Shown piece by piece: positions 16,401 through 46,092 of a stretch of 64,000 nt of DNA. The stretch comes from Haplosporangium gracile (Eukaryota > Mortierellomycota > Mortierellomycetes > Mortierellales > Mortierellaceae). The stretch spans positions 1 through 64,000 of the forward strand of contig JAAAUF010000034.1 in NCBI GenBank assembly GCA_015499985.1, given 5' to 3'. Numbering within the stretch: position 1 is the first letter of the stretch; each line of letters opens with the position of its first letter. The position numbers and the translations under genes were made by a program. The notes under the pieces were generated by a model, which saw only the letters and a program-made list of their open reading frames with translations, was not told where the DNA came from and ran no database searches.

Positions 16401-18358
16401 TTAGTGTGACCAATAAAATGTATGTTGTGCTTTGAGGGTCTCATAGGCTTCACGCGCACCCTTGTACCCTCCATCGGCAGCTTTGAGGTACCAATTCATG
16501 GCGAGGGAGCTGTTCCAGAAATGCTTAGAACTATACATGATACCAAGGTTGAACATCGACGGTATATGTCCTTGTCTAGCCGCCCTGAGGAACCAATACA
16601 GAGCCTCCTCGTAGTCTTGCACAACACCCCGACCCTTGAAGAAGAGGACCGCGAGACAGGACTGCGCCTCGACATGACATTGTTCGGCAGCCTTGTAGAA
16701 CCAGGGCACGGCCTTTTCATCGTCCTGTGGAACACCTAGACCATTGGTATGCACGATTCCAACGTGGAACTGGGCGTCGCGGTGGCCCTCAGCAGCAGCC
16801 TTTTGGAAGTGCTTCATGGCCTCAGAGTGGTCCTTGTGAACACCGCCTTGGCCGTCAAAGTACATGGACCCGAGCTTGAACTGAGCTTCAACATGTCCTT
16901 GGCTGGCGGCCTTTCGGAACCACCCGCAGGCCTTGAATCCGTCCTTGGGTATCCCCTGGCCTTGTGAGTATAAAAGGGCAAGGCTGAACTGGGCTGGTGC
17001 ATGGCCCTGATCGGCGGCCTTGCGATACCATCGAGAGGCTTCTGCAATATCCACCTCCTCTACTCCCCAACCTTGAGCATACATGAACCCGAGGTTCTTT
17101 TGTGCATCTGCGAGCCCCCGGTTGGCGGCCTTGCGGTACCATTCAACAGCCGCAATGTCATCCTCTTGGGCACCACCTTGACCCATCTCGTACAACAGCC
17201 CAATCTCGCACTCTGCTCCTGCATGACCTTGCTCGGCAGCCTTGCGAAACCAACCCATTGCCGACTCGTAACTTTGGAAAAGTCCGTCGGAACCATTCTT
17301 ATAGGCAGTTGCCAGCCTGAACTGTGAGCGGGAATCTCCCTCCTGGGCCTTGACAAAGGTGTAGGTAATGTCCTCTGCGATATCGTGAGTGCTGTCAAGG
17401 TAAGAAAGACGATGATTCTGCATGGATCGAATGTTGTTTGGAGGCATGACCTTGGCCGCTGAGGTGTTGTTGTTGCTGCCTTCCGAGCTCCTGTCGCCGA
17501 TATCAGTGTAATTTTTAAACAGTTTGTCAGTATCGTCGGCAAAGTAGTCGGGGACGAGATCGTACGCTCTAGATGATGTGGCTGAAGCAGAAGGAGGTGG
17601 TGATTGAGGTGGCGACAAGAGGACAGAATGAAGCGGTGGCTGAGGTGCTGGCCGTGATGTAGGTCTAGATGCCAGCCGCCTTGATGGCTTGGATTGCGAA
17701 AGAGGAAGTGGTTTGGACGCATGTAATTGTGATGTCTGAGACGCCGGCAGGAGTACTGACTGAAGCGCCGGCCCTGGAACCAGTTCAGATACTGGTTGAG
17801 CTGGCGACTCAAGTAGCGGCGGAGATGTTGACCGAGGTGGCGATTGAGGCGGAGTCAGAGTCGCTGGTACTGTAGTAGTGCACACTAATGGATCATCCAC
17901 AAGCACGTCCAGGACGGTGTGTGGCACAGCGGCAATGCGAAGAGGTTCGAGACTAAAATGAAAAAAAAAATGTGGAAAAAAGGGGGAAAACAAAGCCGTC
18001 GCTCGTATTACAACCACAATCTTGTTTTTTCTTTTGTTTCAGAATAAATACGGCACAGCAAAGCACAAAAAAAAATGAGGACAACTTACTTTCTGAAATC
18101 TTTGTCCTTCAGAAAGGGTAGAACCTTGATACCACGGCGAATGTTTACGGCGTTCTTGAAGGCGCTCAGAATATCATCCCAAAGGACAATGTCTTTTCCG
18201 TCAGAGTCCAGACGGACCTCGATTTGGACGATCTCTGAATTCGACGGCAGTGTGGTTGGAAAGGCAGAAGGAGCAGCGCCAGCAGAGGACAGGTTATTCT
18301 TATAAATGGGGCGTATCGCCTGGGCCCCTTCCTGAGGATCTTTATGCTTGATCAACAT
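16401..18358 (-). CDS. Sel1-repeat protein A with shared N-terminal module
   Basis: Two exons (18358-18090 and 17952-16401) join in phase to give about 606 residues. Exon 1 encodes a compact module of about 90 residues with the pattern IVLWDDILSAFKNAVNIRRG followed by VLPFLKDKDF; it continues across the intron into LEPLRIAAVPHTVLDVLVDD. A Pro/Ser/Gln-rich linker of roughly 170 residues follows, and then about nine Sel1 repeats of about 36 residues (pattern A..WYRKAA.QGHA.AQ..LG.MY..G.GV) running to the C-terminus. Sel1 repeats form TPR-like solenoids that bind proteins. There is no membrane segment. Genes B and C directly downstream carry the same module and intron, so this is a tandem duplication. 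The cellular role is unknown; adaptor or signalling scaffold is the family expectation. Confidence 0.88.
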
Positions 18359-18750
18359 GACCTCGACGAGTTATATAAGAGAGTAAACGAGTTGTTGCTG
18401 TTGTCCAAAAGGGTGACAGAGTTGGTTATGTATCGAGGAATTCGAGGTGAGAAAGGGGGAGACAAAAGGGGGAGAGAATACTTGACTGGGCGAGAGATAG
18501 AATGTATGAGTGATTGAAGGATGAAGGAGAAAACAGCAGATGTGAAAGAAAAGAGAGAAAGAGAGAGAGGTGGTGAAGAAGGAAGAAGTGAGGGAAGAGA
18601 GAAAAAGGTCAAAGATGTGGAGAATAAGAACTGGAAACAAAAGAAACAAGTGACGTGGGATATGGTCGAGTTTAACATCATGGCACATCAACGCATGGCG
18701 TGCATTGGGCGGTCTGCTAACAGTCACATTCGCAGTGTTACACTTTACTT

Positions 18751-20293
18751 TCAAAAGGTTAAATCAGGATCATGTCCTTCTTTCTGGAGATCCTCATAGG
18801 CCTCCCGTGCAAGCTCATGCCCTCCTTTGGCGGCCTTAAAGAACCATCCCATAGCCTTGCTCTGGGTCACGGGAACTCCTTCACCCGTAAAGTACATGCA
18901 GCCAAGGTTGAACTGAGCACTAGCATCGTCCTGCCTGGCAGCCTTCATGAACCACTCCAAGGCTAGTTCACTGTTCTTCTCAACACCGTCGCCTTTGACG
19001 TAGAGAGTACCAAGGTTGGACTGAGCCTTCGCCAGGCCTTTTTCGGCGGCCTTTTGATACCACTCGGCGGCCATCGTACTGTCCTTCTTAACGCCACGAC
19101 CTTCCTCGAAGAATAGACCGACGTTGTACTGAGCTATAATATCGTCTTGTAAGGCAGCTCGGAGAAACCAATGTTTTGCTGCCAGGTCGCTCTGCTGATA
19201 TCCGTTCGAACCATCTCTGTAAGCCTCAGCTAGCTTGACCTGTGCACTAACTTGTCCTGCTTTAGCGTTGATTTGGGTGTTAGTGCTGACAAGGGTGATG
19301 GATATGGGTTTGTCCGTGGCTGAAATTTGGTGTCCTTGCTGTGTATGAGTGCTGGGTGAAGGGTTGGCCGTGGTTGGAGTATCGGTGTTAGTGTGGGTTT
19401 GGGTACTGGTGCTGATCTTGGCGCCGGTGGAATCGCTGGAGACTACTAGAGGTATATTGGGTTGCTCTGAGCCGACGCTGGATTGCTTTCGTTTTATGTC
19501 TGAGATGTCATTGAGAAGTTGCGTGTTTCTTCCTGACCGAACATTCGCTTGCACAGATTGAGATGTAGGTGATGTTATTTCCGACTGAGATGATGATAAA
19601 GGTGGCGACGGGGGTGGTGACTGAAGTGTCGACTGAAGTGTCGACTGAGGCGCCGTTTGCGATGCTGTTTGCGATGCTGTCTGAAGCACTGGTTTAGGTG
19701 CCGACTGGACTTTTGGTTGAACCATCGATTTAGGTGCTAATAGAACTTTTGACGGAGGCGCAGGTCTTGGTGCCAATTGGGATGCTGAGCGGGGCACTAG
19801 CAGATTCGCTGAGTGAGGAGATAACTGAGATTTTGCTGTAGGCGCCACGTGAAATGCTCGTAGGACTGCTGTGACAAGGTCTATCTGCATCAATGGCGTT
19901 TCCAAGTAAACGTCCAGGACAACATTGGGCCTAGCAGTAAGGCAAAGAGGTTCGAGCCTATAACAGTTGCGGACAAAATTCTTGCGCGTAAGACTTTTTT
20001 ATTCTGCAAATATATAAATCGCGAGATATTTACATGGCACATTATAAATACCTTTTTCTATCACTGCCTCTCACGAAAGAAAGAAGTTCGGATCCGTGGC
20101 GGATATTCAGCGCGTCCTTAAAGGCAAACACGATATCCTCCCAATAAAAAATCTCTTCACCCGTATCGCTCAAGTGGAGGGCGACATGAACCACGTTCGG
20201 GTCTGTGACGGTCGCAAGGCTTGGTGTGCTGATATTAAAGACGGGGCGTATGGCTTGGACGCAAGGCCGAATATTTACTTCTTCACGCGACAT
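18751..20293 (-). CDS. Sel1-repeat protein B with shared N-terminal module
   Basis: Exons 20293-20052 and 19957-18751 join in phase (the donor GGTATTT leaves AG, completed by G) to give about 482 residues. The N-terminal module has EIFYWEDIVFAFKDALNIRHG and, after the intron, LEPLCLTARPNVVLDVYLET, matching genes A and C. The linker (about 100-310) contains short degenerate repeats of Ala-Pro-Lys and Thr-Ala-Ser-Gln/Thr-Leu-Gln-Ser type. Five Sel1 repeats follow, for example AAEWYQKAAEKGLAKAQSNL. The first in-frame ATG of the second exon lies inside the conserved module, so the real start must be in exon 1. It differs from gene A mainly in the linker and in repeat number. Confidence 0.85.
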
Positions 20294-20491
20294 GGAATTT
20301 CCAGTTGCCTTTGATGTGGACGCAGTTCTCGATGAAAGACGATTGAAGGAAAAAGAAAAGAGCGTGCTGAGTGAATGGGTGTGACAGGAGAGGTTGAGAT
20401 GAAAGTTCAGACATGCATTTTTTTTCTTTGATTGGTGTGTGGCTAAATAACGTCACGAGAAATTGAGCCAAAAATTTTCAGAAATAGTGCA

Positions 20492-21943
20492 CTACGGTAC
20501 TTCGACTGGGAGACAATAGCCTTCTTCTCTGAGTCTTACTATATATCTCCGAGAGCGGAAGCATCCAGCGTTGGCTGCCTTGAGATACCATTCAATGGCC
20601 ATGAGTTTGTCCGCGGGAACTCCTTGGCCACGCTCGTAAATGGTGGCGATGTTGTATTGGGCATTTCTTTCCCCTTGAATGGCAGCTTTCATGTACCACT
20701 CAAAGACCTTAGTGAGATCCTTTGGTATCGAGAATCCTTCGTCATAGTACCCTGCCATCTCCATCTGGGCTTTAATATGACCCTGGTTGGCTGCCTTGAG
20801 ATACCACTCTATTGCTGTCTCGTCACTGCAGGAGAACCCATCGTAGCCCTTTCTGTAAGTTTGAGCAAGCTCATACTGCGATTCGGCGTTTCCTTGCTTC
20901 GCCTTGGCGACGATATCTGCCGTATACGCGGACATAGCCTTGATGTCACTCTCAGTCAAAAATGATTGCTCTTGTTCGAAAGGAATGGCGGCAGGAACCT
21001 TGATGTTATCCTGGTCGTTGTTGCATGGGTGCTCGAAGCTGCTGTCGTCGGACTTTGTGTGAACGTTGGCGATGTAAAGGGAAGCTGATACCGGGTTAAT
21101 AGCACCTGGTGGCCAGCTCTTTGTGAGCGCATCCACATGCCACAGCGTCAGGGTCTCAGTAGCCGCTGACGTCGGATGTTGGGAATGAGACGTGTCTGTG
21201 GGGCTAATGGAGCTAATGTCGATGTTGTTCTAATTAGAACCCTGCTGTTCCTGTCGTTGAGGAATGTCGCCTGGAAGTTGAACCTTAACTGAACTGTTGC
21301 AATTGTTGGAAGCGCGCGCAGGGATTGAAGGCGAGTTGTAGATGGACTCGAATTCTTTGGCGAAGCCGCATGCCATGTTCCTACTGAGACCTTGCACAGT
21401 CTCTTCCGTAAGAGACACCAATTGCGTCATCGACTGAGAGGACGATTGCTGAGACACCGCCTGGAGTGCAACCTGGAGTGCAGCCAGGGCCGCTGTCAAT
21501 ATAGCGTCCTGCTTCTCCGAGGATTCTTCAATATATACGTCCAAAACCGCGTCTGGTACGGCAGCAATACAACGAGGTTCGATACTAGGAATATGCGAAC
21601 AAAAAACATTGTCAGCTAGGTATCTATATGTTCACAGCGGTGTATGTGGATGAATACCTATAAACCAAATAATGACGAACGAGGAAGAGACATACAGCAT
21701 ATAGTCGGTTCCTCGAAGGAAAGGAAGGACATAGCACCCTTGACGGATGTTAACCGCGTCCTTGTACGCAAACAAGACATCCTCCCAAATAACAATCTCT
21801 CGTCCTGAAGGATCCAGATAGATAGCGACGGAAAGAATCTCTGTATCCGGAAGTGCGTTAGTGGCAGGTAAAGTGCCAGTCGTGTACACGGGTCGTACCG
21901 CTTGGACTCGTTCTTGAGACTGATTCTTTTGTTCCACTAACAT
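20492..21943 (-). CDS. Sel1-repeat protein C, interrupted by an in-frame TAG
   Basis: Exon 1 (21943-21696) encodes the shared module (EIVIWEDVLFAYKDAVNIRQG). Exon 2 starts at 21584 with IEPRCIAAVPDAVLDVYIEE, again matching genes A and B. The same frame runs to 20492 and ends with about four Sel1 repeats (for example AIEWYLKAANQGHIKAQ), but a single TAG lies in frame at 21232-21230 (codon 201, after GSN). Both flanks read on as ordinary protein in one frame, 446 residues in all if the stop is ignored. Either the gene is a young pseudogene, or a short in-frame intron removes the TAG; a 60-nt candidate from GTTAAG to AATTAG exists but its donor is weak. If translation ends at TAG, only the N-terminal module and linker are made. 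Confidence 0.7.
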
Positions 21944-30902: not shown

Positions 30903-33133
30903 GTTATGACCTGTCAGATAAGTCCTTAGGGCGATATAATATCCACACTTAGCCCGAACTTTATTTCAGCCACTAATCAGCCACACTATAGCGCCCAATT
31001 CTGTACCTCAAAATAATCGTCATCACGCCCCAATCAATTGAGCGCATGCGGACGAGACACCTCCATATTTTTCATCGTAGTGAAAAACAAGGAAACGGGC
31101 TCCTTCTAGACTAAGCCCGTGAGGCGATTAGAAAGGGAAAGAAAGAGGGAAAGGATAGAGGCCACCCCAGTTCCGGCAGAAAAGGTAGGGGATGAAGGGG
31201 AGTAGAGGGTACGGTGACAAAAAAGGATATGCCTCACTGTGCCTCAACACGCGCTACAAACAACAGATAAAAGCAAAAGCAAAATGCGGGAGATGGAGAC
31301 TCACACATGTGTTGTGTTGCAGATAAGTCCAAGAGGCGAGGAAATGAAGGAGAAGGGAAGAAGATGAGGGAGCAAGAAAGGTAGAAATAAGAATGGGAGA
31401 GGGAGAAAAGGTAGGCTTAAGAGAAAAAAGAATTTGAGGCAAACACTAAGAAGGAAAGAAAGATAGAAAGGTGGAGAAAGGAAGATGAAGTAAGAAAAAA
31501 GGAAAAGCAAAGCAGAAAAGCGTAGCTTACATATGAAATAGATGCCCCAACTCGGTAGTAGAAGTGTGTAGATGATCAGATAGATGAGTCAGTTGGCTTC
31601 TCTTTTGTCTTATCTTGACACTGTTGGCTTTCTCAAGCCGGTGCCAGGGACCCTTGTGGATGTCAGGCGACGTAAGGTAACAGCAACCTGATACTTCTTG
31701 CCTCGTTTTCTGTCTTCTCCCCTCTCGCCTTGCATGTGTATTGAGCGCACAAAGATTAAGAAGAAAAAGAAACAAACAAGATCGAGGCAGAGGGCACAGC
31801 GCGTTGATTCTGTGGAAGGAAAAAAGCGGACAGGGGTTGCCGTTGGAGAAGAAAATAAATAAATTTAAAGAATAAGGGGTTGACACACACCATGGCGCAT
31901 CCTTTTTCTCTCTTTTTTCCTTTCCCTTGCCTCTTCCTCATTCAGTTATCTGTTCATCACTTCCTCTTCCTTCATCACGCCGAATTCCATTTCACTTTCT
32001 GATCATCCCATCATCAACATCGTTCCATTCTCCGACCCATCTCCCTACTTATTCTTCTCTCTCTTTCTTATTCGCCATCAACGCTCATTCCTCATTCCCG
32101 CGTGCGAACCAAGGCGAAAACATAACAACAACAACCACAACAACCCCAACCACAGAGACCTTAGGTACTTTTCAGCGAACGTGCGCTATGCATACTAGAA
32201 CCGACCCAACTGCACGCCTGCTACAACTTGGGACCTAAAGACTCATCATAATCATCAGTTTTGGTGGGTCTACTGCTTCCAAGCCGAGGTGACAACCAAC
32301 ACCTTGCTGTCGTCGCCTTTGTTTTCGTTCATCATCCAGTCCAAAAACACGGCAGGCTTGCGCCGGGTATGAGAAGTCTCCGGAGTGCTGTTGGCAAGCG
32401 CGAAAGAGAACCAATTGTATCTTCTTAAGCAAAAACTAACCTTCCGTCTCCTCTTGGCATTTAGATATTGTCTCCACTTGACAGGACAGCATCCTTTGAT
32501 ATTCATAGCCAGCCAAGAACAGCGACAAGAAACAGCAGTAAGCACGACACACCAAAAAAAAAACAACTACAGCAAAAAGCAACAAGAGCTACAAAACAGG
32601 ACCAACACTACAGCAGGAGACAACAAACAAACTGTAAAAAACAATTATTGTCGCCTCCCTCGCTTTCAGTACGTGCCTTGTTTCTTCCCAGCATTGGACA
32701 TAGTTAATTTCTCCTCACCACCGACGGATGTTGACCAACTAACGACTCTGCATACACATAGATTTTTTTTCTTGTGAGCAACACAACAGCCCCGTCCACC
32801 AAGTAAACAAACGTTCGCATAGGACCCACTAGAGTTTGTAGTTGGGCGTACACCTTCCGCGGAAAGCAACGCCATAACATATTTGCATTGACAAATTGCA
32901 CTTTCCTCATACAATAGACTCCTTGCCTCCAATCTTGTTTTTGTCTGCTTCTCTGCTCTTGCACCAAAAGTCTGCCCGTTCCCCCCGCGCATACAACAAC
33001 GAACTTTTGATATCCTCCAAGGTAAGACAAGAGTATTTCCATTGTGCAGCGTTTTTACTTTTGTTGGTCAAGGTAACAAAGACTTATGCTTGCTGTCATG
33101 ATTGCTGCTTGATATACTATTAGTGCACACGCC
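30903..33133. other. Promoter and leader region of the NLR-like gene
   Basis: No protein gene was recognised. Purine-rich tracts occupy 31130-31510 and C/T-rich tracts 31900-32090, the latter typical of fungal transcription-start regions. A probable 5'UTR intron runs from 33022 (CAAG|GTAAGA) to 33123 (CTATTAG), ending ten bases before the start codon at 33134. Short frames at 32270-33040 have no coding character. Confidence 0.6.
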
Positions 33134-36100
33134 ATGTCCAAGGAATCGCATCCAACCCCATCAGGTCCCTCACCTCACAATAGCCGGTCGGGCCCCAATT
33201 CTGCCCTTGTCAGCCGTGACAGAGCAGCTAATAAGGCAGTCGAGTCATCGTCATCTCGCCCTGATCGATTTATCAGTCACGAAGTCAGCGATGCCGACAA
33301 CGAGGTTGTCTCTTCCCAGCCTGTGCGCAAACAAAGCAAGTTTTTTGGATTTTTCCGATCCTCTAATTCGAGTCCTAAGGTCAAAGTCCTCCCGAGCTCT
33401 AAACCCAAGGAATCTGTCAACCGACTTTCAACCTCCAGTACCCCAGCGACTCCCCATCGAATTTCCACCGCCAGCACCCAGTACACTGCCGACATCGAGA
33501 ATGAAGCCTCCGGAACTGTCAAAATCGAGCACGCGTTCTCCGGCACGGCCGTCAAGAGCCCTTCTTCCGACGTCCAGCCTTCAACCCTGCCGGCCGAACC
33601 TCGCTTGGACGTCTTCCTGCAGAATTTCAACAAACCTGCCATCGTTATTCCTCTGCCCGAATTTGGTGCCCGTATCGACGCCACACCTCAGCTTGCCCTG
33701 TGCATTGGCTTGCTTCTCAAGGACAGCGACGCTCTCGGCCACAAAGAGGATCTTTCCTTGCAGTATATGTCATTTGGCACCGCTGATCAACTTGCCTGGC
33801 TCAAGAACACGAAGCAAGACCCCACCGAGCAGGAACGTTTACACTGGCTAATAAACCGTATCGTGGAGGAGTTTGCAAAGGACGCCTTCAAGAACTCGAC
33901 CGAAATCGCTGAGATAGTGCTCCTTGGCCCTGTCCTGGACAGCGAGTATTACCGCAGACTGCTGTCGTGCACCATCACTGCATTCGACCAGAATGTGCTC
34001 TTGGATGTCGATCTACTCCAAGGTCTGGTGCAATTAACCCAGTCTGGTCCTCGCGGGTCGCTCGTCTCCGATGACTTGGTCAAGGTTCTCAGCGTCCTCA
34101 GGGTTCGACTTCAGAGGACTCACCAACAATCCTCCGAGCATCTTTTCCACCTGACTCTGGCTGTGTCAAGGCTGCTCGATGTCATGGCGGATCACAAGAT
34201 TGAAGATCTGAACCGCGTTGAGGAGCATGAGCCTCTGTCTGGGGTGTTGTCTGGCCTGAAGGATAGCTCGAACCCTTACCTTATGTACCAAGCCTGCTAC
34301 GCGTTCCAAGCGCTGCAGTACGTGCCTAGCAAGGAGACCCCGCTGCAGGCGGTCCTTCGACACTCTACTGGGGTCGCAGATGGATTGGTCAAGGTCACAG
34401 CTGTGTTCAAACTGGATTTAGGCGCAGTCCTTGAGGGCCTCGGCAAGCTACAGGAGGCGTTCGGCAGTACCGTTGGAGCAGCTGTTACTGTTTACAAGGG
34501 TGAGAGCTCATTGATGGAGAGTGGCCAAGGAGTTCTCGATGCCCTGAGGGAGAGGTTTGGGTCTGGTCAGAGGCAACCATGGTATGCTGCCATTCGTGCC
34601 GCTCAGGTCTTCGTTCACTCTGGTCAGCTGAGAGATCTCAACCAACTCGTCCGTGAGGCACCTTGCCGTCGTGATCCTCTGTTTCAATGGGGTATCTGCC
34701 AACTGCTGGGTGAGATCGCATCCGACAACATCTGGACCACCACTGTCCGTCAGCAAGCTGTCGACCTTCTTGAATATTTATACAAGCACGATGCCGAGTG
34801 GGGTCAAGATGAGAGCGTCAAGACCTGGATGCTCAACATCATGCGTCAACTCGCCACCATTTCTGACCAAGCTATTAGCACCAGTGCCCATACTGTGCTG
34901 AAGGATCTCAATCAGGACCAAGGCATCACCACCAGCCTTCCTTACCCGCTCAGAAACCGTCTCCCCCTGCCATCCTGCTCACCGACACTCACCCGTGTAT
35001 TACGCATCCCCGATGTCGAGTACAGTTTGCACAAGCTGCGCCAACAGAGGCTCGAGGAGCACCGCAAGGGTGTCTACATCCCTCCCCAAGCGAAGGCCAG
35101 CTTACAGACATTAGATGACTCACTTTTCTCGCTCATAGAAAAGGTACAGGAGTTCTTGGCCGGTCAGAAGCAAGTGTTTCTTGTGCTGGGTGATTCTGGT
35201 GCTGGCAAGACAACGTTCAACCTCGAGCTGGAGCATACCCTATGGAAAAGCTACAAGAAGTACGAACCCATCCCTCTCTACATCAACCTCCCCACCATAG
35301 ATGACCCAGAACACGACCTCATCGAAAAGCAACTTCAGGACCACAACTTTTCAGAGGACCAAATCCACGAGATGAAGCTACACCGCAAGTTCATTCTCAT
35401 CTGTGACGGATACGACGAAAGCCAGCTCAAGACTAACATCCACACCGCCAACCAGTTCAACCAGTCAGGGCAGTGGCAAGTCAAGATCGTCATCAGTTGC
35501 CGTACTCAGTACTTGGGAAGGGACTATCGCTCCCGGTTCCAGCCGCAGCCGCAGCCAGTCGATCGATGCCAGCGGACTACAATGGATCTCTTCCAAGAGG
35601 CGGTTGTTGCAGCTTTCTCGAGAGCTCAGATCCAGCAGTATGTCAACGAGTATATCAAGAAGCTGCCTGCATTCGATCCTGTCCAGAAGACGCCGTCATG
35701 GACCGCAGAGGAGTACATGGACAAGCTAGTCAACATTCCAAACCTGATGGATCTAGTCTCAAACCCCTTCCTTCTTAAGCTCACTTTGGATGCGCTCCCA
35801 GCCGTTATTAAGTCCAAGACGAACCTCTCTGCAATCCGCGTCACACGCGTGCAACTCTACGACAGCTTTGTCACGCGGTGGCTCGAGGTCAACCGTACGC
35901 GACTGGAGGCCAGCCCCTTGAGTGACGAGGAGCAAGCAGAACTGGGGATGCTGATCGATGACAACTTTATCTACCACGGCATCCACTACCAAAAGGATCT
36001 TGCCACTACAATATTCATCGACCATGGAGGCAACCCAATCGTCAAGTACATTCATCTTCGTGATAAGGGCACCTGGAAAGCAAGGTTCTTCGCCCCTAAC

Positions 36101-38620
36101 GGCCAAGCCAAGTTGCTCCGAGAGTCGAGTACGATAACGCGGTCCGGCGCTTTCTTTCGGTTTCTCCACCGGTCACTTCTGGAGTACTTTTATTCGAGAA
36201 CTATTTACGACCCTCTCGACTCTGACAGTGAGGTTGATGACTCTGGCGGACGAGAACCAGCCTTTGACCTCAAGACCTGCCTGGCGCAGAAGAACCTTAA
36301 CGAAGAACCATCGATCGTCCAGTTTCTAGCAGAGCGGGTGCCACAGGATCCATCATTCCGACAACAGCTGCTGGATATGGTTGACGAGTCCAAGGCAGAT
36401 GAGGTCGATGTTGAGATCAAGGTCGCAGCAGCGAACGCCTTCACAATCCTGGTCAAAGCTGGTGTGACCTTCCATGGGGCGAATCTCCGAGGTGTCAAGA
36501 TTCCACGCGCCGACCTCTCCGGCGGTCAGTTCGACTATGCTCAGTTCCAAGGAGCCGACTTGACAAGGGTCAACCTTGCAGGGAGTTGGCTGAGGCAGGC
36601 GAACTTGAGCAACGCGCAGATGGAAGGCGTCCGATTTGGGGAGTTGTCGTATGTTGAGACGGACGGTTCTGCGACAGCTTGTGCTTACTCGCCTGATGGA
36701 AAGATATTGGCTGCAGGTCTGGATGAGGGTGGGCTTGAAATCTATGACACTAATACCTGGAGAAGAATCTATCGATGCCTGGTCGATCACCCGGTCCTAA
36801 GTGTTGCATTCTCACCCGACAGTCGAAGAATCGTTTCCGGAAGCGAGGACGGCAAAGTTCGATTATGGGATTGCACTAATGGCGAAAAGATTTTCGTGAT
36901 GGAGGGGCACCTTCGCTCTGTGAACTGCGTTGCCTTCTCACCCTGTGGTAAGCAGATTGCCTCAGCCAGCGCTGACGAGACGGTGCGATTGTGGAATTCA
37001 AAGACCGGAAAGTGTACTTTTGTTTTGAAGGGCCATACCAACTGGGTCAAGAGTGTCCAATATTCACCAGACGGACGGCGGCTTGTATCGGGTGGTATCG
37101 ATGAGAAGATTCGGTTCTGGGATCCGGAGACAGGAGAGCCCGGCGCCGTTTGGATTTCTTCGTTGGGGACAGTTTTCAGCCTGGCCTTCTCCAGAGATGG
37201 ACGATGGATTGCCTCCGCTCATGAGAGAGGTAGATTGCAGTGTTGGCATGCGGTGTCGGGAGAGCTGGGCCCAGTCTTACGTGGCCACACCGGGACTGTT
37301 AAAGATGTTACATTCTCTCCAGACAGCCGGTGGATTGCTTCGTCTAGCAACGACGTAACGATGAGATTATGGGACGCATCGGCAGGCACCCTTGCCTTCA
37401 TGTCTAGTAGCCACAAAGCTCCCGTATACAATGTTACCTTCTCTCCGGATGGCCGTCAAATCGCGTCAGGGGGTCGTGACAGAAAGGTGCGGTTGTGGGA
37501 GGTGGATTCAGTCTTGTCGTCGGGTATTGCGGTACACAATCAACTCGGGCCTGTAGTGAAGACCGTGTACTCTCCAAATGGCCAAGCTATTCTCACAGCT
37601 AGCGGTGAGCAAACCGTCAAGCAATGGGATTCTCTAACAGGAGCGCCTGTGCCACTTCCGATCAGGTTACCAGAATCTCTGTTAGTCGACTCCGTGGCGT
37701 ATTGCTTGGACGGCATTCCAGTCATATTCAGCACTCAAGATGGAACCACTCGATTGTTGCAGCTTCAGGAAGGAGGAGCAGAGACTGTAATGGAAGGCTC
37801 AAGTACGATGAGGCGCGTGGTCATGTCACCAAGCTGTCGCTTTATTGCCTCGCTTGACTTGAACGATACTGTGGAGTTATGGGAGCTCGGCGTAACGCAA
37901 CACAAGTGCGTTCTTCTGCAGAAAGGTGGAACTACTGGCGAGACAATCGGCTGTTTGGCGTTCTCCACTACAGGAGATCGACTCGCAGTTGGCTCTTGGA
38001 GTGGCATCGTTTGGATCTTCGAATCTCGATTGGGAAGCCTAGTAATATCCAAGAAGTTGACGAATCAGGAGGTCTCAACGATGTCGTTCTCACCAAATGG
38101 TCTGCAGCTTGCCATAGGTACTGTTGAGTCCTCGATTTACCTTTGGGATTTGCAGTCGGAAGAGTGTGCAGTCGAGCTGAAAGAGCACACCGAATGCGTG
38201 ACTTGTGTGGCCTACTCGCCGTGCGGTCAATGGATCGCTTCTAGCAGCATGGACAAGACTGTTCGACTTTGGTCTCGGCAACAACCACCAAGCGAGACAG
38301 AGAGTTGGTCATGCATCCATACTGTCCAAGATTTCTTTCGCCATGTTCTTACTACGGCCTGGAGTCCGACCGTTCCTATGGAGTTTGTTACTGGGTGCTG
38401 GGATGAGTCTGTCCGGGTCTGGCGAGTCTCAGGCAAGGGCGAGGATGTGGTTGTCAAGCTAGTTTGGGGAACCAATCTTGCTATTCTCCACGCCCCAGGT
38501 CTTGTACTCAAAGATGTGGCTGGTCTTAGTTCAACCTACCGGAGGTTGTTGGTCCAGCGCGGTGCCATTGACGAATTCTTGCCTTTGGAGAGAGCTGGAG
38601 GACTAGAAGTCGAGAAGTAG
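33134..38620 (+). CDS. NLR-like STAND receptor: helical repeats - NACHT - pentapeptide - WD40
   Basis: One uninterrupted frame of 1828 residues. Residues 1-150 are Ser-rich and probably disordered. About 150-650 is helical, ARM/HEAT-like, with no recognised effector fold. The NTPase core follows: GDSGAGKTT (686-694, Walker A) and FILICDGYDE (753-762, Walker B), then a helical region to about 1090. Pentapeptide-type repeats at about 1110-1170 (GANLRG, GADLTRVNLAGSWLRQANL) form a short beta-helix. About fourteen WD40 blades (1180-1800; pattern VAFSPDGRQIASGSxDxTVRLWD) fit two seven-bladed propellers. Such proteins sense a ligand through the repeats and oligomerise through NACHT; in fungi they act in non-self recognition and regulated cell death. 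The N-terminal output domain is not of a named type. The first ATG after a leader intron was chosen as start. Confidence 0.93.
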   Translation: MSKESHPTPSGPSPHNSRSGPNSALVSRDRAANKAVESSSSRPDRFISHEVSDADNEVVSSQPVRKQSKFFGFFRSSNSSPKVKVLPSSKPKESVNRLSTSSTPATPHRISTASTQYTADIENEASGTVKIEHAFSGTAVKSPSSDVQPSTLPAEPRLDVFLQNFNKPAIVIPLPEFGARIDATPQLALCIGLLLKDSDALGHKEDLSLQYMSFGTADQLAWLKNTKQDPTEQERLHWLINRIVEEFAKDAFKNSTEIAEIVLLGPVLDSEYYRRLLSCTITAFDQNVLLDVDLLQGLVQLTQSGPRGSLVSDDLVKVLSVLRVRLQRTHQQSSEHLFHLTLAVSRLLDVMADHKIEDLNRVEEHEPLSGVLSGLKDSSNPYLMYQACYAFQALQYVPSKETPLQAVLRHSTGVADGLVKVTAVFKLDLGAVLEGLGKLQEAFGSTVGAAVTVYKGESSLMESGQGVLDALRERFGSGQRQPWYAAIRAAQVFVHSGQLRDLNQLVREAPCRRDPLFQWGICQLLGEIASDNIWTTTVRQQAVDLLEYLYKHDAEWGQDESVKTWMLNIMRQLATISDQAISTSAHTVLKDLNQDQGITTSLPYPLRNRLPLPSCSPTLTRVLRIPDVEYSLHKLRQQRLEEHRKGVYIPPQAKASLQTLDDSLFSLIEKVQEFLAGQKQVFLVLGDSGAGKTTFNLELEHTLWKSYKKYEPIPLYINLPTIDDPEHDLIEKQLQDHNFSEDQIHEMKLHRKFILICDGYDESQLKTNIHTANQFNQSGQWQVKIVISCRTQYLGRDYRSRFQPQPQPVDRCQRTTMDLFQEAVVAAFSRAQIQQYVNEYIKKLPAFDPVQKTPSWTAEEYMDKLVNIPNLMDLVSNPFLLKLTLDALPAVIKSKTNLSAIRVTRVQLYDSFVTRWLEVNRTRLEASPLSDEEQAELGMLIDDNFIYHGIHYQKDLATTIFIDHGGNPIVKYIHLRDKGTWKARFFAPNGQAKLLRESSTITRSGAFFRFLHRSLLEYFYSRTIYDPLDSDSEVDDSGGREPAFDLKTCLAQKNLNEEPSIVQFLAERVPQDPSFRQQLLDMVDESKADEVDVEIKVAAANAFTILVKAGVTFHGANLRGVKIPRADLSGGQFDYAQFQGADLTRVNLAGSWLRQANLSNAQMEGVRFGELSYVETDGSATACAYSPDGKILAAGLDEGGLEIYDTNTWRRIYRCLVDHPVLSVAFSPDSRRIVSGSEDGKVRLWDCTNGEKIFVMEGHLRSVNCVAFSPCGKQIASASADETVRLWNSKTGKCTFVLKGHTNWVKSVQYSPDGRRLVSGGIDEKIRFWDPETGEPGAVWISSLGTVFSLAFSRDGRWIASAHERGRLQCWHAVSGELGPVLRGHTGTVKDVTFSPDSRWIASSSNDVTMRLWDASAGTLAFMSSSHKAPVYNVTFSPDGRQIASGGRDRKVRLWEVDSVLSSGIAVHNQLGPVVKTVYSPNGQAILTASGEQTVKQWDSLTGAPVPLPIRLPESLLVDSVAYCLDGIPVIFSTQDGTTRLLQLQEGGAETVMEGSSTMRRVVMSPSCRFIASLDLNDTVELWELGVTQHKCVLLQKGGTTGETIGCLAFSTTGDRLAVGSWSGIVWIFESRLGSLVISKKLTNQEVSTMSFSPNGLQLAIGTVESSIYLWDLQSEECAVELKEHTECVTCVAYSPCGQWIASSSMDKTVRLWSRQQPPSETESWSCIHTVQDFFRHVLTTAWSPTVPMEFVTGCWDESVRVWRVSGKGEDVVVKLVWGTNLAILHAPGLVLKDVAGLSSTYRRLLVQRGAIDEFLPLERAGGLEVEK

Positions 38621-42896: not shown

Positions 42897-45800
42897 TTAG
42901 CACCGTTCATAGTAAAGAATATACGGACGGCTCGCAAGCACCTCATCCAGAGTAGCAGACCGGACCTGGGTGTCGCCGCAATAGATCCACTCCCGAGTAT
43001 CCTTTACAGGCGTAGAGTCGGGAACAACGCCGTCCGTTTTGAGCTCCTTGTCGTTCACGGGCCTCTCCGCTGAGGTACTCTCCAACGACCTACCCGCAGA
43101 GGCGATTACACCATTTGGACCACCGCTAACAGCCCCTTTCTTCGCCGCTGCTGCTACACCTCCACCTCCACCACCCTTCTTCTTCTTTTTCTTCGAGCTC
43201 TGCTGAGCCAACATCTCTGAAAGCGGGATATCAGGCAAGACAACCTCAACTCCATTCGAGACCGCCGTCGTCGTCGTTGATGGCGTGCCGGGCTCTGTAA
43301 TAACAGGGGGAGGGGGGACTTCGACCTTGGAGGAGAGCACAAAGTTGGTATAGTGGCCCGTGGCAAGGGAACCCTGATGGACCGTGGCGCCATACAGCCT
43401 ATACTTTGTCGAGCCGCCGCCTTTCTCTCCATTCGCAAAGTTCTCGACGACCGCCAACTCCTTGACTCCACTCTCGGTCTCGTCGTGCAGCTCGCTCTTG
43501 GGTATGCAGAACGGCGCCATGTCGAGCTCAGTAGGGATATCGACATGGTCCTCGATTTTTTTCATTAGTCCAAATGACGTGGTTGTGTGCTCGAACCGCT
43601 TTAGATGAAGAACTAGTGTCGACGGGAGACTTGACACCAGATACCGCTTATATGCCCTACGGAGAATGGCATTCGACGCCTGCACCTTGCCTTCAGTAGA
43701 AGCATCGTCCTTCTTCTCTGCCTTTTCGTCTTGCTTCTCCTTCATTTTCTCCACCTTCTCTTCCTTCTTCTCCTCCTTCTCTTCCTCCTTCTCCTCCTTC
43801 CCCTCCTTCTCTTCCTCCTTCTCTTCCTCCTTCTCTTCCTTCTCGGCTGCATTATCCTCCGTCGCCGCGCCGTCTTGTGTCTTGTACGACTGGACCAACT
43901 TGTAACAGTTCTCACAGGCAAACTCGTTCTCGCCATCCAAGAGGTCGACATTGGTGAACTGAATCAACGACCGCTCAATCGACAGGGCCTCAGAGTTGTT
44001 AGACCGGGAAGGAACGTTCTTGAGCAGCTTCTCGACATGGCGCCAGTGCTCCTCGGATCCTTGGTCAGCCTCCAAGATCCCTTGACCATCGCTCGACTCG
44101 GATGTACGCGAGAGCTCGAACCCAGCCATGCGTGATTTTGCCCTGAGACTGTCCATCAGACTTCCGCTCCCAATCGAAACTGGGGCTCCCTTAATGGGTA
44201 ATGAAAGGTCATAGTAGTCCTCGTACGCGTACGAGCACTACAATAGCAAATAATTTTATAAATCGTGCATTAGTCTCTACACATCGCCTCGCTCAGTTGA
44301 GGCATATCAATCAAAAGAATATTAACAAGAGCTCTGTACCTTCTTGCACGCATCACACACGATGACACTGACGAGCTTTCCAGAGAAACAAGTGTCGATG
44401 AAAGGGACATACTTTGGTGGCGATGTTACTTCCTTCGTATCTCTACCAGCTTGCTTCTGCTGTTGCTGCTCTTCCTCCGCAAGCCGCTTCTTAATCAAGT
44501 CTGCCTCCTCCTGTCGAATACCCTCCAGCAAATGCCGCATCAACTCTTGACTATCCTGTTCTCGGAACCCGCGGAAAATCTTCCACTTCTTGGCAATCTG
44601 TGTGAACAAATCTCGAGGGGTCACGGTCCCACCCTTTTGTTTCCACATTGTGAACAAAAAGTCCTTGAAGGTCGTCGTTAAAGGTCCCAGTCCTGTTCGT
44701 GTGGTCGCAGAGATGGATTTGGAAGCGTGGTTATTGTCGGAGAGGATCTCGCGGAGGGACTTTGTTTCAACCAAGACCTGGATGACTGAGTTGAAGAAGC
44801 AGGTGTTGCCGAGATTCTGGAGTCCTGGCGCATGAACCTTGATCTTGCTGGATTTGTTGCCCTTCCCTTTCCTGGATTGTGCGAGCAGACCCTCTAGTAG
44901 GCAGTGAACATCGTCACGTTTAATTATCGATTCGAGTCATACAATGAACGCATTGCAGTCCGACTTTAAAGTTACCCACGCTACAGGTGCCGAACATGAA
45001 GCACACGTACCTCTGGCTTTTGCTTGCTTTGCTTGGAGAGTCCTGGCAAGGAGCGTTTGACACTCCTGGAGGATTGGGTTCTTGTCCTTGGATGTTACCA
45101 CCTGGTCGTCGCACTCGTAGCACCTACATTGTATGACAAATACACATTTTACTGTTAATACATAAGTCTACAGCAATTAACAAGAGCTAGGATAAAACAC
45201 AATAGTCGCTTACCAGACGTCCATGGACCCAAGGTTCATGACCAAAGGGTGATTATTCGTAACCTTGTCATGGTGCTTTAGCGCATGCTTTTGAAACAAC
45301 CTTCCACAATTAATCTCTGAGCACGTAAGACAGAGAGACAGGGCGTCTAACGGCAAAGGCTCCAACCAATCATCAATTGGACCCGACGAGGGCAACATCG
45401 AGAGAGGTACCCCCAACTGTTGAGCAATACTCGTCAGCTTAGTGTGCTGATCCCGACATCCATGGCAGTGGTCCAAGTCTGCAGGTGCTGGGTGGGTCGC
45501 AGTCAAGGTCTTTCGGATCTTGGGCAACTTGACGGCTTCCTTAAGGTGTGGACACTTTTCAATCCCCGCTGCGAACTGGGCTTGATAGTCGTCGTCGTCT
45601 CCAAGAGTGTCCTTGAGCAGGGTGTCGTTGTTTTCTTCCTCAGTTGGCGGTTTTGGTGCCGTGTCGGTATCTCCTGCTGCTCCGTCATGTGCGGTGGTAG
45701 GAGTTGGCGTGTTGTTGTTAGTGTTGTTGGCGATGGCTGACTGCAGTGAAGCAGCAATTGCTTCTGACAAATTGGATTCTTCCAGTGAAGCGATACCAGC

Positions 45801-46092
45801 GTTATTGGCCTCCTCCCGGGTTCTTGCAATCATTTCAGCCAAAATGACATTGTCTAAACAGTTTATTATGCGAGTAACATAAGCGAAACAAAAACGTCAG
45901 TACTTTTCCTGCACTGGCAGAGTTTGACCTATTCCCTTTCAGTTATCAGCTATCTGGTGCACTGCAATTGCATTTGTCACTTGTGTTGTTACCTGTGGCT
46001 GAGATATCGTCGCCACTATTCTGTTTTGGTCCTGCTGGTCCCTTGTTGGGTCCTTTTGACTTTTTTACTGGCTTTCTCTTCTTTCCTGCCAT
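42897..46092 (-). CDS. USP16/45-like: Ubiquitin-specific protease, USP16/USP45 family
   Basis: Cysteine protease that removes ubiquitin; human USP16 acts on histone H2A. Five exons (46092-45993, 45853-45214, 45123-45011, 44893-44340, 44237-42897) join in phase to about 915 residues. A basic N-terminus (MAGKKRKPVKK) precedes a ZnF-UBP domain (about 115-255): CPHLKEAV, DHCHGCRDQ, LCLTCSEINCGR, then HALKHH and VWCYECDDQV. The catalytic Cys lies in QNLGNTCFFNSVIQVL (about residue 310); CDACKK and ACENC are the finger Cys pairs. The His box is VHQGSLATGHYTNF near the C-terminus, which ends YILYYERC. A Glu/Lys low-complexity block of about 55 residues is inserted in the catalytic domain between the second Cys pair and the palm. 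All catalytic signatures are intact. Confidence 0.94.

Follow-up and report, generated by a model that had tools for sequence, protein, structure and literature searches.

The 64,000 nucleotides analysed here (hereafter the window; positions 1 to 64,000 of the forward strand of contig JAAAUF010000034.1, assembly GCA_015499985.1) come from the fungus Haplosporangium gracile and contain one gene for a protein resembling the nucleotide-binding oligomerisation domain-like receptors (NLRs), and so related to immune receptors known from animals and plants. Its complete, intronless coding region (33134–38620, forward strand) is a single open reading frame (ORF) of 1828 amino acids (aa), as a first-pass annotation of the window had stated, and lies in a stop-to-stop frame at 33113–38617. 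We regard it as a genuine NLR-type receptor gene and as a member of an already described Mortierellomycota family: NACHT-PPR-WD40 and helical-headed NLRs of Mortierella-type fungi are already in print, and it therefore belongs to a known kind. Two observations go beyond the published accounts we found, namely a separate history of the NACHT core and a family-wide concentration of replacements on the top face of the WD40 region.

The domain order originally proposed, running from a disordered N-terminus through helical repeats, NACHT and pentapeptide repeats to WD40, was borne out by Pfam, structure prediction and blade placement. All features lie on the forward strand. The disordered N-terminus (aa 1–155; 33134–33598), with a predicted local distance difference test (pLDDT) score below 50 over aa 1–153, is followed by a conserved box (aa 156–220) and an ARM_5 alpha-solenoid (Pfam aa 221–579), together at 33599–34933 and delimited by Pfam and by structure prediction and comparison. 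The solenoid had been described as helical repeats of unassigned type; it is assigned to ARM_5 (PF23948) with 222.9 bits (E 8.7e-66; Pfam cut-off 27 bits), the sole domain over its cut-off in aa 1–650, where Pfam found no enzymatic, HET or death-fold head. Structure prediction, suggested earlier as a check on aa 1–650, agreed on the disordered N-terminus and returned a generic ARM/HEAT solenoid in place of the novel head proposed, resembling importin-alpha in Foldseek and importin-4, CAND1 and SF3B in VIA-align.

The putative NACHT switch cassette (aa ~620–1100; 34991–36433), with inferred exchange breakpoints near both ends, matches PF05729 (34.4 bits, E 2.5e-8) and aligns to the animal NLR core. 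Fold prediction recovered the nucleotide-binding, helical and winged-helix subdomains of such a core, and the predicted model matches NLRC4 and NOD2. Both Walker motifs, previously called intact, can be read off the translation: Walker A is GDSGAGKTT (aa 686–694; 35189–35215) and Walker B is FILICDGYDE (aa 753–762; 35390–35419). The pentapeptide stretch noted between NACHT and WD40 corresponds to PF00805 (aa 1113–1148; 36470–36577; E 2.4e-14). WD40 repeats, found by domain search and also matched by solved WD40 structures, occupy aa 1164–1764 (36623–38425) and supply the superstructure-forming repeats expected at the C-terminal side of an NLR.

Two short motifs accompany these domains. Near the N-terminus, RKQSKFFGFFRSSNS (aa 65–79; 33326–33370) is a basic-hydrophobic variant of the family motif RKRDKxxxFFRSSxS. 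A strict RKRD[K/V]-plus-hydrophobic pattern, drawn up after viewing sequences that are related to each other, matched 71 of the 133 N-termini that could be used, where shuffled N-termini would give 0.8, at a distance of 82–111 aa (10th–90th percentile) from the conserved box. An earlier, loose pattern had matched 128 of 211 proteins, evident false matches included, and the counts quoted are those of the strict one. A role as nuclear localisation signal or importin-like autoinhibitory tail found no support, and the model shows no structure for the motif; that it docks to a membrane or a partner would be a guess. The C-terminal tail (aa 1771–1812; 38444–38569) carries an LLxQRGAI-type motif, which occurs within the last 60 aa in 42 of 86 proteins of 1500–2200 aa.

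This architecture is not due to chance, because aa 1–1180 match 1173 database proteins at E≤1e-3. Many of the best 120 of these have the same domain set, and the organisms named there are of genera that we take to be Mortierellaceae; the nearest named relative among the matches listed comes from Linnemannia elongata (P0002, 88% over aa 1–1180). A query with aa 151–610, restricted to short candidates, returned 188 proteins, the best 120 of which name the same set of genera. That the gene might be single-copy, as the first-pass annotation had allowed, is contradicted by its own genome (37.5 Mb, 1157 contigs), in which the 27 ARM_5 matches obtained at E≤1e-3 were assigned to 22 loci, of which 21 exceed the Pfam cut-off. 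Reading 21 loci (20 stretches and the window gene, with C542 left out), we found that 11 have open frames of 1500 codons or more bearing ARM, NACHT and WD40 features; two of these (L037 and L047), once trimmed to the first methionine, are without the N-terminal box. In the remaining 10 the frames are shorter or interrupted. The ARM domains of L038, L041 and L044 are identical to those of the H. gracile proteins P0095, P0055 and P0078, respectively. A NACHT profile gave 23 matches in the same genome, and those on contigs C43, C352, C427, C711, C1020, C1029 and C1122, which lack ARM_5 matches, possibly represent further NLR-like genes of another architecture. Some database models list additional domains. 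In P0156 (Linnemannia elongata) ARM_5 stands alongside PF13966, presumably a reverse-transcriptase-associated zinc finger, which possibly points to a fused gene model or an inserted transposon, and P0009 and P0118 list PF13499, PF13405 and PF13202, which we take to be EF-hand type accessions, next to NACHT and WD40.

Trees were built from 29 sequences (nine from this genome and 20 hand-picked database proteins) for ARM, NACHT and the two WD40 halves, WDa and WDb. The NACHT data reject the ARM, WDa and WDb trees with log-likelihood losses of 1900–2139 (approximately unbiased test, p 0.0011 or less). For the ARM data the loss is 720 with the NACHT topology, 170 with WDa and 282 with WDb, and the WDa data lose 578, 121 and 36 on the NACHT, ARM and WDb trees, respectively. 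The ARM and WD40 trees reject each other too, so recombination is not restricted to NACHT. In 83 sequences, the pairwise identities of ARM-C correlate at 0.83 with those of WDa and at 0.78 with those of the pentapeptide region, and the identities of the nucleotide-binding domain (NBD) correlate at 0.91 with those of the winged-helix and second helical domains (WHD-HD2), as against 0.53 for ARM-C with NBD; the difference between the ARM-C/WDa and ARM-C/NBD values is 0.30 (bootstrap range 0.19–0.43). By these alignments and trees, the NACHT core (aa ~620–1100) is inherited apart from its co-varying ARM, pentapeptide and WD40 flanks.

The same discordance appears in individual proteins. P0010 and P0067, both of L. 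hyalina and from contigs of equal listed length, are 82–98% identical in sliding windows over aa 241–600, 42–72% over aa 601–1080 and 80–95% over aa 1101–1160, the level shifting around aa 620 and 1100. In 118 of 119 sequences (database models longer than 2200 aa left out, a few own-genome copies present twice), an ARM identity of at least 85% was combined with a NACHT identity of at most 65% in 32 of 179 pairs, while the opposite contrast (NACHT at least 80%, ARM at most 62%) was seen in none of 244; because many pairs share members, the 32 amount to few events. Three large NACHT types, with 40, 35 and 32 members, emerge at a 40% distance cut, and two of them fuse at 42%. Mapped onto a quick ARM tree with Shimodaira-Hasegawa-like approximate likelihood ratio (SH-aLRT) support only, these types need 15 changes against a minimum of 2; for each type separately, the well-supported branches require no fewer than 5, 7 and 5, respectively. 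Among own-genome copies, the nearest to the window gene is L040 in ARM (70%, followed by L038 at 68% and L041 at 55%) and L041 in NACHT (73%, with L040 at 56%). The sensor may be replaced as well, since L047 (C1114) and L048 (C503) are young in ARM and NACHT (synonymous divergence, dS, 0.37) and old in WD40 (dS 1.67).

The WD40 sensor has a different mode of change. Located by their strand-c ends, 14 blades are spaced 39–50 aa apart, in keeping with the figure of about fourteen given previously, and would fit two 7-blade propellers. The near-identical blades also reported were not recovered: across 91 blade pairs the highest identity is 48% in protein and 55% in DNA (ungapped), with a mean of 27% in protein. 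For comparison, fungal NLR repeats have been termed highly conserved when more than 85% identical over at least 100 aa (PMC4986451, in the part available). Set against seven relatives, blades find their best match at the same position in 84 of 98 comparisons, and hence do not homogenise. Concerted evolution of the blades in the window gene is accordingly rejected on both the 48% maximum and the positional orthology mostly kept.

Variation is concentrated within the blade. Numbering 42 residues per blade, with the tryptophan at 41, we found column entropy over blades 2–7 of 69 relatives to be highest at positions 16, 34, 18 and 15. In 20 disjoint close pairs (75–92% identical over WD40, compared in nine of the 14 blades), 295/659 cells were replaced at positions 16, 18, 34 and 36 against 921/6640 elsewhere (odds ratio 5.0), and replacement was fastest at the five positions 34, 18, 16, 15 and 36. 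These pair counts are not an independent test, because the four positions were picked beforehand, from the entropy result in the same family and from the paper on the HNWD genes of Podospora anserina, and the counts carry no housekeeping WD40 control. Between the window gene and P0002, 11/34 top-face residues changed against 39/326 elsewhere. Interaction hotspots R1-2, R1 and D-1 have been mapped to Gbeta residues 16, 18 and 34 (PMC3419727, as far as its available text goes), and codons 7, 9, 25 and 27 of HET-E-type repeats, on the top face, are described as under positive selection and as lying on either side of the constrained codons 8 and 26 (PMC1805685, likewise in part). With an offset of 9 between the two numberings, set from a conserved V (17) and D (35), our fast positions 16, 18, 34 and 36 would, by our own alignment, correspond to these four codons.

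Taking these results together, we give even chances to the following account of Mortierellaceae NLRs, drawn from sequence comparison. The NACHT core would be a cassette swapped repeatedly between paralogs by double-breakpoint recombination, so that several old switch types, diverged from one another, accompany ARM heads and WD40 sensors that are themselves similar; perhaps this keeps receptors expressed together from forming mixed oligomers. The sensor would meanwhile diversify at the top-face positions of ascomycete HET-E receptors, without repeat homogenisation. Three points qualify this account. Firstly, the discordance data fit either direction of conversion. Secondly, a ratio of nonsynonymous to synonymous divergence (dN/dS) above 1 at the top face was not found in own-genome pairs, dN being below dS for the top-face class in the four of five pairs that gave finite values; the test is limited by dS, which is 0.37 for L047/L048 and already 1.24 for the next pair. 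Thirdly, the pairs P0096/P0066, P0078/P0060 and P0056/P0045 have no or negligible top-face excess. No published account of NACHT exchange in Mortierellaceae was found among the papers listed from an open-access collection, judged by title and the start of the abstract.

The first of these points leads to an alternative that we consider somewhat unlikely, in which ARM and WD40 were converted among copies around persisting old NACHT types and NACHT itself did not move. Other boundaries evidently recombine, as the mutual rejection of the ARM and WD40 trees and the two dS values of L047/L048 indicate, which such flank conversion would accommodate. However, both flanks share a history that ARM-C and NBD do not, so that conversion would have had to affect the two flanks alike; a cassette is simpler, because one internal tract suffices. 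Wrong gene models or alignments of database proteins, for which the long models P0003 and P0031 with their two ARM_5 stretches might speak, as fused models would, are a very improbable source of the discordance, given that models above 2200 aa were excluded from the pair contrasts, that own-genome open frames repeat the pattern (L040 nearest in ARM, L041 in NACHT) and that NBD and WHD-HD2 are mutually consistent.

As for function, the gene probably encodes an intracellular NLR-type recognition receptor, a member of the STAND (signal transduction ATPases with numerous domains) NTPases, in an ARM_5-NACHT-pentapeptide-WD40 family of Mortierellaceae. The analysis shows the domain order, the intact NTPase motifs, an NLR core fold in the prediction, a multicopy family with broken copies, the top-face variation and the separate inheritance of NACHT; location, ligand binding, oligomerisation and output, as well as paralog exchange as the cause of that inheritance, are inferred. 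The 14-blade region would bind a protein ligand through its top-face residues, and binding would free the NACHT switch for ADP/ATP exchange and subsequent oligomerisation. Clustered ARM_5 solenoids, together with the flexible basic-hydrophobic N-terminal tail, might then recruit partners or membrane and so yield an output in defence or cell death. Of the immune or allorecognition receptor with a novel output domain proposed at first pass, the NLR-type receptor thus stands, and the novel head gives way to ARM_5 in a family already described.

A STAND-type scaffold for development or metabolism, whose WD40 region binds different endogenous partners in each paralog, appears improbable to us. A top face also diverges when paralogs change partners, the close pairs compared are possibly not orthologs, and the want of dN/dS above 1 would suit such a role. 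Large families with broken copies nevertheless fit recognition better, and top-face change is seen inside pairs 79–90% identical over WD40, for example P0054/P0051, with 14/35 against 25/336 elsewhere.

It is similarly doubtful that the genes were acquired from, or are common to, the endosymbiont Mycoavidus and serve host-symbiont dialogue in place of allorecognition. In the available portions of two articles, Mycoavidus homologs are described as about 45–50% identical best reciprocal hits for which transfer is proposed (PMC11291939), and helical-domain homologs are reported from the same bacterium (PMC9815663). Our searches for bacterial ARM_5 confirmed none of 13 pattern stretches as relatives, and gave none in 16 genomes having a motif match and none in the 392 genomes that share a family with an Undibacterium genome, an empty answer being no proof of absence. 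These negatives, which tell against a bacterial source, do not contradict the published claim, because Mycoavidus is possibly absent from the genomes searched. An ARM-NACHT-pentapeptide profile (A1) matched 90 of 399 genomes in the order of the Undibacterium genome, the places listed starting at profile position 1023 or beyond, the pentapeptide end, with one exception (G535) inside NACHT. By tblastn, aa 1–1180 matched one plasmid record, over aa 684–909, and aa 151–1180 matched 94 phage records; matches in the five listed are confined to the pentapeptide end.

Elsewhere in the window, a ubiquitin carboxyl-terminal hydrolase gene with a zf-UBP domain (42900–45896, reverse strand) is split across three successive ORFs and, as its domains run across all three, probably carries introns, unlike the NLR gene. 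The introns ascribed to neighbouring genes are thus probable in the one neighbour checked. Three clustered ORFs with Sel1 repeats (PF08238) lie at 16404–21229 on the reverse strand, about 12 kb from the NLR gene, and 240 family proteins used as queries (E 1e-5) detected no other piece of the family in the window outside the gene.

Few studies have addressed recognition receptors in early-diverging fungi, and a family whose head, switch and sensor are distinguishable by their separate histories provides a testable case. If the positional match with HET-E holds, two distant fungal lineages have used the WD40 top face for diversified recognition; if switch exchange holds, the question of whether NACHT types avoid cross-activation between paralogs becomes approachable. 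Among known systems, Apaf-1 has a CARD as its head. The core of the window protein matches that of Apaf-1 (PDB 5juy, 3sfz) more weakly than those of NLRC4 and NOD2, and Apaf-1 has no ARM_5 head. The Podospora anserina HET-E, HET-D and HNWD proteins (PMC1805685, PMC2873952, both in part) likewise combine NACHT with WD40 and, by our offset, would share the four variable top-face positions. They differ in their HET head and near-identical blades, whereas the window protein, without a HET head in aa 1–650 by Pfam and with its best blade pair at 48%, carries pentapeptide repeats and ARM_5, and its blades mostly keep positional orthology. The combinatorial domain assortment described for fungal NLRs by Dyrka in 2014 (PMC4986451, the available part) also has modules recombining between lineages, as here; there, N-terminal domains are fused to different NOD lineages, while in our family, inside a single architecture, the two flanks agree better with each other than with the NACHT between them. 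Closest are the accounts from the same phylum, each available in part. Twenty-six 'N-NACHT' NLRs have been counted in Entomortierella parvispora (PMC12258605), and N-terminal helical domains of more than 500 aa are reported as common to NLRs of Pezizomycotina and Mortierellomycetes (PMC9815663). This long NLR_Helical alpha-solenoid agrees with the window protein by description alone, to which we add the Pfam assignment PF23948 and the conserved short motif in front. The NACHT-PPR-WD40 NLRs of Mortierellomycota (PMC11291939) have the same named architecture; the available portion of that article does not spell out PPR, name ARM_5 or analyse module history, and in the window gene the corresponding element is the pentapeptide repeat PF00805.
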